Positions 8,519-54,207 of a DNA stretch of 58,488 nt are shown here, piece after piece (positions within the stretch are counted from its first letter, which is position 1; each line of letters begins with the position of its first letter). The notes under the pieces were generated by a model. It was not told where the DNA came from. It did no database searches and saw only the letters and a program-made list of their open reading frames with translations. The translations under genes and the position numbers were made by a program. This stretch comes from an uncultured Selenomonadales bacterium (lineage in GTDB: Bacteria; Bacillota; Negativicutes; Selenomonadales; Selenomonadaceae): the NCBI GenBank assembly GCA_900314765.1, contig OMWN01000072.1:1-58488 (forward strand), given 5' to 3'.

Positions 8519-8575
8519 TTTAAACGCCCGCGTCTTGACGACGGTGGGACAAAAAGTTTCATAAATTTGTAAAAT

Positions 8576-8922
8576 ATGATTTTGTGCATATTCCCGAGAC
8601 GATGCCAGTTCGAAGTAACTTAGCGGTTTCCTATAGGCTCTTAAGGAAACACTGATTATCTCAGCAGTCGTCTTGACGGGTCTTTTTCCGTATATCTTCG
8701 TCGATGCTCATCCACGTAGCACCGCTACGTCTCTTCGCATCTCCTTGCTGTACGAAAAAATCCCTCGTCAATACTCCTACTTCAATTAATCAGTGTTTCC
8801 TCCAGCTGGCTCCGAAGCGGCGTGTCTTCGCTTTTGCCGCGAGGAAGCCAGTCTTAGAGCCTATCGAAATTGCGCAGTGAATGAGGGCTGGCATCGCCGA
8901 GTCACATTCCATATAGCAAAAT
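8576..8922 (+). repeat. Palindromic element A, copy 1, interrupted by element B
   Basis: Core ends are GATGCCAGTTC (8601) and GGGCTGGCATC (to 8895), which pair fully if G-T wobbles are allowed. The weaker outer arm starts with ATGATTTTGTG at 8576. A solo copy of the same family at 51781 lacks the 8643-8801 insert. It fills most of the gap between the thioesterase gene and the response regulator gene. Confidence 0.85.
8643..8801 (+). repeat. Palindromic element B, copy 1, nested in element A
   Basis: Terminal inverted repeats AAGGAAACACTGATTA and TTAATCAGTGTTTCCT bound a long imperfect hairpin. Inner arms are TTGACG/CGTCAA and an apical ACGTAGC/GCTACGT stem with loop ACC. It interrupts element A after its GGCTCT, at the same place as in the copy at 48890. 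Confidence 0.85.
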
Positions 8923-12189: not shown

Positions 12190-12375
12190 GAATCCTATAG
12201 GAAATGTGACTCGGTGATGCCAGTCCTCATTCACTGCGCAATTAGGGCAGGCTCTAAGGCTGGCTTCCTCGCGGCAAAAGCGAAGACACGCCGCTTCGGA
12301 GCCAGCCAAAGATCCTATATGAAATTGCTAAGTTACTTTGGACTGGCATCACCTTGGGAATATTCACAAACTCAT
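12190..12375 (-). repeat. Palindromic element A, copy 2, uninterrupted
   Basis: Core ends are GATGCCAGTCC (12216) and GGACTGGCATC (to 12350), 135 bp, exactly as in the solo copy at 51806. The outer arm ends TATTCACAAACTCAT at 12375, and a second partial copy of that arm follows to 12391, abutting the ilvD stop. It is in the opposite orientation to the other copies. A short open frame through it (12166-12393) is not a gene. Confidence 0.85.
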
Positions 12376-12394
12376 ACTTTCACAAACTCATAGC

Positions 12395-14047: not shown

Positions 14048-14180
14048 GTTTTAGCCTCCAATTAAAATTTTAAATTTTATGATAAAAGATTATAATTAAT
14101 AACAATAAGAAATACGTAAATTTTTAAAGTAGAAATTCTGCCTGCCACTTCATCAATCCAACTTCATTGATGAAAACTGA

Positions 14181-14406
14181 ACCCTCTCCGCCTCGCATTC
14201 GCTCGGCACCTCCCCCATTGGGGAGGCTGGCATTACAGACTCTGAAATTATTTATTTTAGCTAAATCGGTTCTATCTTAATCAAAATCGTGCAACTTGTT
14301 TTGTCTGTAAAGCGAAGGTTGTCCTTCACTTTCAATTATACCGTGAAGCACTGCTTTCGCTATGCCTCCCACTCTGGGGGAGGTGCCCCGAAGGGGCGGA
14401 GAGGGT
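14181..14406 (+). repeat. Palindromic element C, copy 1
   Basis: The left end begins ACCCTCTCCGCC and runs to CCCCATTGGGGAGGC. The right end begins GCCTCCCACTCTGGGGGAGG and ends GGCGGAGAGGGT. The two ends form imperfect terminal inverted repeats of about 45 bp, each holding its own small hairpin, around an AT-rich middle. It occupies most of the 424-bp gap between ilvD and the next gene. No coding region is seen in that gap. Confidence 0.85.
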
Positions 14407-14471
14407 CTTTCACAAGCATATAAAAAATGAGCGGATATCATCCGCTCTATGAAACGAATTAATATCAAGCA

Positions 14472-33037: not shown

Positions 33038-33129
33038 CGTATAGTCACCCCACCACCAACTTCGTTAATCAATCGCAAGCGTGAATTGCGGAAAACTTCA
33101 CACTCAGCTGCAAGCGGCATAAGCGCACA

Positions 33130-33391
33130 ACCCTCTCCGCCTCGCATTCGCTCGGCACCTCCCCCATTGGGGAGGCTGGCGTTACAGATGCTGGGATTAT
33201 TTACTCTAGCAGAATATTTTGCTAATGAAACATAGTGCCTTTTGTTCTTATGTTTAGTTTTAAGTGTAAAACGTTGAATAATCGATTAATGAAAGTGTGC
33301 AGCTCTTTATTCGTTCGTCAAATTTTAGCGTAAAGACTCGCAAACTATGCCTCCCACTCTGGGGGAGGTGCCCCGCAGGGGCGGAGAGGGT
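33130..33391 (+). repeat. Palindromic element C, copy 2
   Basis: Same ends and orientation as copy 1 (ACCCTCTCCGCC left, GGCGGAGAGGGT right). The middle contains GAATAATCGATTAATGAAAG, which recurs inverted inside copy 3. It fills most of the 458-bp gap between deoC and glgA; a terminator follows at 33436 and nothing coding is seen. Confidence 0.85.
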
Positions 33392-33435
33392 CTTTGTGCC
33401 TTCATCTTCAACACTTCACAGCACAAACGCTATAC

Positions 33436-36858: not shown

Positions 36859-36899
36859 TGTCTACCTCCGCTGATTTATAGTTGAATGAGTTTGAAAAG

Positions 36900-37138
36900 A
36901 CCCTCTCCGCCCCTGCGGGGCACCTCCCCCAGAGTGGGAGGCAAAGTATGAGATACTTTGGCTAGAACTTAACAAAATAATAGAAAACGTTACACTTTCA
37001 TTAATCGATTATTCAACTAGAATAAATGTCTCACACTTTAATGTGCGAATCGATTCAGCTAAAGTAAATAATCTCAAAATCTGTGACGTAAGCCTCCCCA
37101 ATGGGGGAGGTGCCGAGCGAATGCGAGACGGAGAGGGT
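36900..37138 (-). repeat. Palindromic element C, copy 3, inside the glycogen operon
   Basis: Same ends as the other copies but inverted: starts ACCCTCTCCGCCCCTGCGGGG and ends GACGGAGAGGGT. The middle shares an inverted stretch with copy 2 (ATTAATCGATTATTCAA). It lies in the 446-bp gap between glgP and glgB; the rest of that gap holds the hairpin at 37216. Confidence 0.85.
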
Positions 37139-48822: not shown

Positions 48823-49175
48823 ATGAATTTGTGACTAATATCGAGGCGATGCCTGTCCGAAGTAATTTAGCAATTTCATATAGGCTCTCAAGGAAACACT
48901 GATTATTTCAGCAGTCGTCTTGACGGATCTTTTTCCGTATATCTTCGTCGATGCTCATCAGCGTAGTACCACTACGCTTCTTCTCATCTTCTTGATATAC
49001 GAAAAAATCTCTCGTCAATACTCCTACTTCAATTAATCAGCGTTTCCTTTGGCTAGCTCCGAAGCGGCGTGTCCTCTCTTTTGCCGCGAGGAAGCTGGCC
49101 TTAGAGCCTATCGAAATTGCGCAATGGATGAGGACAGGCATCGCCGAGTCAATTCCCCTATGTTTTCACAAGATC
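48823..49175 (+). repeat. Palindromic element A, copy 3, interrupted by element B
   Basis: Core ends are GATGCCTGTCC (48848) and GGACAGGCATC (to 49142). Compared with the other copies, one base pair of this stem is changed on both sides (A-T to T-A). The outer arm starts ATGAATTTGTG. It lies between the rubredoxin stop and mdh and fills that 434-bp gap; no gene is seen there. Confidence 0.85.
48890..49049 (+). repeat. Palindromic element B, copy 2, nested in element A
   Basis: Ends AAGGAAACACTGATTA and TTAATCAGCGTTTCCTT. Apical stem GCGTAGT/ACTACGC with loop ACC; copy 1 has ACGTAGC/GCTACGT, so two pairs differ on both sides at once. Confidence 0.85.
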
Positions 49176-51737: not shown

Positions 51738-51781
51738 AAAATAGGCACTGGCGAAATCAAAATGTCAGTGCCTATTTTTTA
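51738..51781. terminator. Bidirectional terminator
   Basis: A stem of about 11-12 bp (AATAGGCACTG with CAGTGCCTATT), T6 on the plus strand and T5 on the minus. It ends the CNNM gene and, beyond element A, the YnbB-like gene. Confidence 0.85.
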
Positions 51782-51976
51782 TGAGTTTGTGAATATCCTC
51801 GAGGTGATGCCAGTCCAAAGTAACTTAGCTATTTCCTATAGGCTCTTTGGCTGACTCCGAAGCGACGTGTTTTCGCTTTTGCCGCGAGGAAGCCAGCCTT
51901 AGAGCCTATCGAAATTGCGCAGTGAATGAGGACTGGCATCAACGAGTTTATTTTCCCCATGATTTTACAAACTCAT
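51781..51976 (+). repeat. Palindromic element A, copy 4, uninterrupted
   Basis: The best intact copy: outer arms ATGAGTTTGTGAATA and TTTTACAAACTCAT; core ends GATGCCAGTCC (51806) and GGACTGGCATC (to 51940), 135 bp. A middle hairpin pairs GGCTGACTCC with GGAAGCCAGCC. It lies between the YnbB-like stop codon and the shared terminator. Confidence 0.88.
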
Positions 51977-53986: not shown

Positions 53987-54061
53987 TGGTGCGCTCGGTG
54001 GGAGTCGAACCCACGCTTCCAGCTCCGGAGGCTAGCGTCCTATCCACTGGACTACGAGCGC
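53987..54061 (-). tRNA. tRNA-Arg (anticodon CCG)
   Basis: A 75-nt cloverleaf with perfect acceptor stem GCGCTCG/CGAGCGC, T-arm GGGTTCGACTCCC and encoded CCA. The anticodon loop CTCCGGA gives CCG, which reads CGG codons. It lies 68 nt upstream of the preceding gene's start on the same strand and right next to repeat B copy 3. Confidence 0.95.
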
Positions 54062-54066
54062 TTCAT

Positions 54067-54207
54067 GAAGCAGTCGTCTTGACGGATCTTTTTCCGTATA
54101 TCTTCGTCGTGGTTCTAAGCATAGCACCACTACGCTTCTTCACATCTTCTCGATATACGAAAAAATCTCTCGTCAATACTCCTACTTCAATTAGTCAACG
54201 TTTCCTT
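54067..54207 (+). repeat. Palindromic element B, copy 3, left end missing
   Basis: Begins at GAAGCAGTCGTCTTGACGG, lacking the AAGGAAACACTGATTA arm, and ends TCAACGTTTCCTT. It is not inside an element A. Its truncated end abuts the 5' end of tRNA-Arg. Confidence 0.8.

Follow-up and report, generated by a model that had tools for sequence, protein, structure and literature searches.

The window, by which we mean the whole stretch of DNA that was analysed (58,488 nucleotides), corresponds to contig C93 in a draft genome of 2.33 Mb that comprises 103 contigs and is 98% complete. It carries copies of a hairpin repeat, element A, and of a second repeat, element B, which are nested at two places. 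In agreement with the initial annotation, A is uninterrupted at two sites of the window and is split by B at 8575–8913 and 48823–49171, in both cases after GGCTC. The nested B copies of the window measure 156 bp each and have inverted ends (GGAAACACTGATTA / TAATCAGYGTTTCC). The features are the following:

8575–8640, plus strand: left part of A, composite 1 (blastn against the A consensus; sequence)
8641–8644, plus strand: left flank of B, 4 nt, TTAA (composite 1)
8645–8800, plus strand: element B, assigned as IS5-type MITE, GGAAACACTGATTA...TAATCAGTGTTTCC (composite 1)
8801–8804, plus strand: right flank of B, 4 nt, TCCA, unequal to the left flank TTAA (composite 1)
8805–8913, plus strand: right part of A, composite 1 (blastn against the A consensus)
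48823–48887, plus strand: left part of A, composite 2 (blastn against the A consensus)
48888–48891, plus strand: left flank of B, 4 nt, TCAA (composite 2)
48892–49047, plus strand: element B, GGAAACACTGATTA...TAATCAGCGTTTCC (composite 2)
49048–49051, plus strand: right flank of B, 4 nt, TTTG, the most frequent allele among empty A sites (composite 2)
49052–49171, plus strand: right part of A, composite 2 (blastn against the A consensus)
12196–12376, minus strand: uninterrupted A, empty site (blastn against the A consensus)
51780–51976, plus strand: uninterrupted A, empty site, with outer repeat TATGAGTTTGTGAA (blastn against the A consensus)
54069–54206, plus strand: B copy outside A, 5'-truncated (left end absent), adjoining a tRNA (53990–54061, minus strand)

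Full reading covered 0.88 of the 2.33 Mb of this genome, in stretches picked around known A and B copies, and 120 sampled genomes of the host's family served for comparison. End motifs were counted in the window's genome (with up to two mismatches for B) against the reversed motif as a control.

The full A repeat is about 195 bp long and consists of a 141-bp hairpin core (GGCGATGCCAGTCC...GGACTGGCATCGCC) within outer repeats (TATGAGTTTGTRAAA); the 135-bp A described earlier corresponds to the core (135–141 bp) and not to the complete repeat. The end motif of the core was found 142 times in the window's genome versus 13 times for the control, which corresponds to about 65 A copies. These are dispersed and mainly intergenic, and a simple ORF call in the sampled stretches placed them mostly between co-directional (26) or convergent (8) genes and rarely between divergent ones (2). 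The outer inverted repeats start with TA. The core is predicted to fold with a z of about −10 to −11.5 as RNA and of about −9 as DNA, and the pairing of its stem is kept: 46 ungapped copies show 37 double compensatory cells versus 12.5 ± 2.4 with the 3' letters shuffled, a type of count that is inflated by kinship among copies. The compensatory changes support selection on the A stem, short of proof.

With its terminal inverted repeats TATGAGTTTGTRAAA and its dispersed copies, A is MITE-like. No IS partner for the outer repeat was found in the 120 family genomes; a parent was sought via this repeat, which is used only by the window's genome save for one isolated match (genome G006). A cmscan of the window against Rfam at gathering score returned two tRNAs only and left A unmatched, and the idea of a known structured RNA was dropped. 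Neither Rfam nor the 120 related genomes provided a match to a named repeat family, and the hairpin core had no exact match across the genome collection. Since the 120 family genomes, one of them of the same genus, contained no substantial match (one of 23 nt, E 9e-4), A appears to be private to the host species. The earlier statement that these repeats belong to no nameable family thus still applies to A, while B can be placed as described below. The outer repeat TATGAGTTTGTRAAA is also present on some copies of two further hairpin families (CCCTCTCCGCC...CCTCCCC and GTCACCCCACC...GGTGGGGTGAC), located at 14180–14410, 33129–33395 and 36896–37138 of the window and at G000:C41:11700–11999, which suggests one mobilising enzyme for all three families; no such enzyme was found. 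A possible A remnant at G000:C84:18992–19038 has two A ends just 47 bp apart overall, comparable to the short B stubs.

Element B comprises 156 bp plus 4-bp flanks (GGAAACACTGATTA...TAATCAGCGTTTCC), is non-coding and is present in about 45 full copies in the window's genome, where its end motif was counted 196 times versus 3 for the reversed control. It shares its terminal inverted repeats with an autonomous IS5 element of a sister genus (L174; 1263 bp, 1292–2554) that has GGAAACACTGATTAA ends, TTAA/TTAA flanks and a 333-aa transposase. A second sister-genus locus (L175) has ends similar to those of B, TAAA/TAAA flanks and a 330-aa transposase; both transposases match NF033581 (IS5_4) far over the cut-off and also PF05598 and PF01609. 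B-like MITEs of the sister genera, mostly of about 160 bp, have perfect 4-bp duplications (TTAA, TTAG, TCAA, TAAA) in 10 of the 16 copies read. Judged by its size, ends and relatives, B is a non-autonomous MITE of the IS5 family. The best-matching named relatives include Schwartzia, Selenomonas bovis and uncultured Veillonellaceae/Selenomonadaceae, which makes Selenomonadaceae the probable family of the host; a plasmid collection contained no B. Paired B-type ends were also recovered by a pattern search in Nitrosomonas, Acidobacteriota, Clostridia and others, and since they recur in unrelated phyla, MITEs with such ends are widespread. Many pairs lie 143–160 bp apart in an Acidobacteriota MAG (JAIRVC01, L288) and in a Nitrosomonas MAG (CP091134, L232 and L233).

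The annotation had noted that no transposase is nearby and that mobilisation would have to occur in trans. This extends to the whole draft assembly as searched, in which no IS5 transposase of the B type was found and the L174 transposase was unmatched. Just two PF01609 matches (L082 and L083) are present in the window's genome; these DDE transposases look IS1182-like by eye, are both without B-type ends and were dropped as parents of B. A transposase with matching ends, which the annotation had recommended looking for, accordingly exists in sister genera but was not found in the window's genome, and with none found there B was probably mobilised in trans. A transposase in the same genome that can act in trans is desirable for an IS5-family MITE but does not strictly define it, as the parent is often lost.

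Genome-wide, eight A+B composites occupy three positions of A, and most B copies lie outside A. Besides the two of the window, the composites are located on contigs C6, C29, C22, C31 and C60 and on C32/C54, the latter being two contig ends with identical overlapping B parts that were counted as one element. Five of the eight have B at A core positions 44–47 (GGCTC^NNNN^GCTGG). The C22 copy is inserted at positions 23–26 in the outer left arm, and in C31 and C60 B is reversed at positions 90–93 in the right arm. The one fixed point proposed earlier is therefore correct for both window composites and for the five of the hot spot, but not for the remaining three; B elsewhere in A, which had been named as evidence against that proposal, does occur, and a strong preferred site remains. 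Eight of about 45 B copies in A compare with 1.3–1.8 expected if B followed the share that A has in intergenic DNA (P 4e-5 to 4e-4), a preference of about 4- to 6-fold, and the placement of five of eight composites within 4 nt has a P of ~1e-4 under uniform placement; both tests were chosen once the pattern had been seen, and the site count is small. The mirror of the hot spot, core positions 97–100 in the 3' arm (mostly TTAG), resembles the B target more closely than the hot-spot TTTG and is used by none of the eight composites.

At two of the three positions the insertion site includes bases that are unpaired in the predicted A stem, and at the third a bulge is 2 nt away. Together with the high stability of the stem (RNA z about −10) and its kept pairing, this would fit recognition of folded A (cruciform or single-stranded) by B, the internal loops being the real target. 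However, it is in these same loops that A is rich in A/T, much like the A/T-rich targets of B outside A, so that sequence preference alone can explain the positions, and we regard recognition of folded A as unlikely. The more specific proposal that the extruded A hairpin guides the B transposition complex, with insertion at internal loops and both hairpins still foldable, is more doubtful; if true, an IS5-type (DDE) transposase would be choosing its target by structure.

The four hot-spot nucleotides of empty A copies read TTTG 29 times and otherwise TTAA, TTTA, TTGG, TTCA or others, and some empty copies have CAAA or TAAA blocks that match filled ones. Such variability could represent scars of B excision, in which case many more A copies would once have held B. 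Yet two of the hot-spot bases are situated in an unpaired loop and could be free to drift, and A positions 34, 37, 69, 96 and 108 vary more, which makes excision scars a rather improbable source.

Read in the orientation of A, the 4-nt flanks of nested B are CCTA/TTCG (C6), TTAC/TTTG (C29), TTAA/TCCA and TCAA/TTTG (the two window composites), TGAA/TTAG (C22), CAAA/TTAA (C31) and TAAA/TAAA (C60). Only the last is clean, and an empty A copy (C9) has a matching TAAA allele. The comparison of empty and filled sites for target duplications, suggested at the outset, thus yields a match for one of the seven complete nested copies; the other six are unequal. Perfect 4-bp repeats flank 6 of 28 full B copies in the window's genome, so a 4-bp target duplication is found there as well as in the sister genera (10 of 16), but most B copies of the window's genome, nested or free, have unequal flanks. 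Several nested copies combine TTAA, TTAC or TCAA on the left with TTTG on the right, which is not predicted by a simple 4-bp duplication. Ends of the form AAGG...CCTT without a duplication would fit some nested junctions better; they are contradicted by TTTA, TATA, TTAG and TCAA duplications elsewhere.

Matching 4-bp flanks are found in 7 of 39 shortened B copies versus 2.5 expected (P 0.0045). Short pairs of B ends number 39 in the sampled stretches; most of them are 31–49 bp long, and several are joined internally at TTCA, which both B ends have as a short repeat. We suggest that palindrome instability lies behind the B stubs and the unequal flanks. In a similar way, three ISRm22 copies have unequal flanks that were ascribed to inter-copy recombination or adjacent deletions (PMC1525189). 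The sampled 0.88 Mb hold about two dozen B-end palindromes of 31–49 bp, whose 4-bp flanks match more often than expected (for example G000:C48:6937–6970, C10:20461–20495, C44:10357–10388 and C65:18882–18920), and several sit directly upstream of a ribosome-binding site and start codon.

The A halves of the four complete hot-spot composites have a mean pairwise identity of 0.79, a value lowered by indels in C6, versus 0.88 in random A sets, and composite A halves are dispersed among uninterrupted copies in the A tree. The flanking DNA differs between composites and similarity stops at the edge of A; segmental duplication was dropped as a source on these grounds. The composites have no recent common composite ancestor: their scattered A halves and differing surroundings argue that B entered separate A copies and that A+B did not spread as a unit. 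Nested B copies are intermixed with free ones and resemble each other more than random sets of free copies do (P 0.0008), as expected if the nested copies are younger. Divergence in the five ungapped composites is about 0.037 for B versus 0.060 for A (the ungapped A values of C6 and C22 are unusable because of indels), hence B is only modestly younger. Of the two options offered by the annotation, targeting of A by B agrees with the eight composites, the over-representation of B in A and the scattered A halves. Multiplication of an A+B composite as a unit through the outer ends of A would account for the common insertion position and B orientation of five composites and for the likeness of nested B copies, but with A halves no closer than random copies, variable junction bases at the hot spot, two other insertion positions, one with B reversed, and differing flanks it is very unlikely.

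We consider it probable that B, an IS5-family MITE moved in trans, was repeatedly inserted into copies of the older, species-private A. Under this reading A would have spread first, and B would have entered separate copies several times by the action of an IS5 transposase that is no longer found in the host genome. The targets that B presumably picks are short and A/T-rich (TTAA, TTTA, TTTG, TTAG) and either span internal loops of the G+C-rich A stem or are close to them, and the interval between GGCTC and GCTGG would be its hot spot. Later recombination or replication errors at palindromes may have blurred the 4-bp duplications, and the same errors may have trimmed many B copies to stubs of 31–49 bp; these errors, the order of events and the transposition in trans are what we infer from the observed copies. 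The unequal flanks of most nested copies, the failure to find a B-type IS5 transposase in the genome and the small age difference between B and A in the composites speak against this reading. The dozens of A copies provide built-in empty and filled sites, so that one genome shows directly which targets an IS5-type MITE selects and what becomes of its flanks.

B resembles IS5-family MITEs and their parent IS (NF033581, IS5_4) in its GG...CC repeats (GGAAACACTGATTA), its TTAA-like 4-bp duplications and its gene-less body of about 160 bp, and an IS of a sister genus with an IS5 transposase has the same ends. It differs from such systems in that the parent IS was not found in the window's genome, that many copies are shortened to palindromes of 31–49 bp and that most nested flanks are unequal. 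A resembles the ERIC, Correia/NEMIS and RUP MITEs in its roughly 65 dispersed, mainly intergenic copies and in its outer inverted repeats that start from TA and enclose a long stable stem-loop (PMC2229807, PMC10969869); unlike these, it matched no named family in Rfam or the 120 related genomes, and neither a parent transposase nor a clear target duplication was found for it. By our comparison, the closest precedent for the nesting is provided by IS elements that target REP palindromes, such as ISPsy8, ISPpu9, ISPpu10 and ISRm22, and a preference for REP palindromes is also known for an IS5 member, ISNm1106 (PMC1525189). Common to both is the repeated insertion at defined points of a dispersed palindrome, and the imperfect direct repeats of the REP-targeting elements, ascribed to inter-copy recombination, have a counterpart in the unequal flanks found here (PMC1525189). 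In contrast to those elements, B is a MITE devoid of genes; it enters a 141-bp hairpin where they enter a short REP, and the majority of its copies are located elsewhere than in this target. The nesting is thus an unusually clear case of a known phenomenon and no new kind of system, in which a gene-less IS5-type MITE joins the IS elements known for palindrome targeting.
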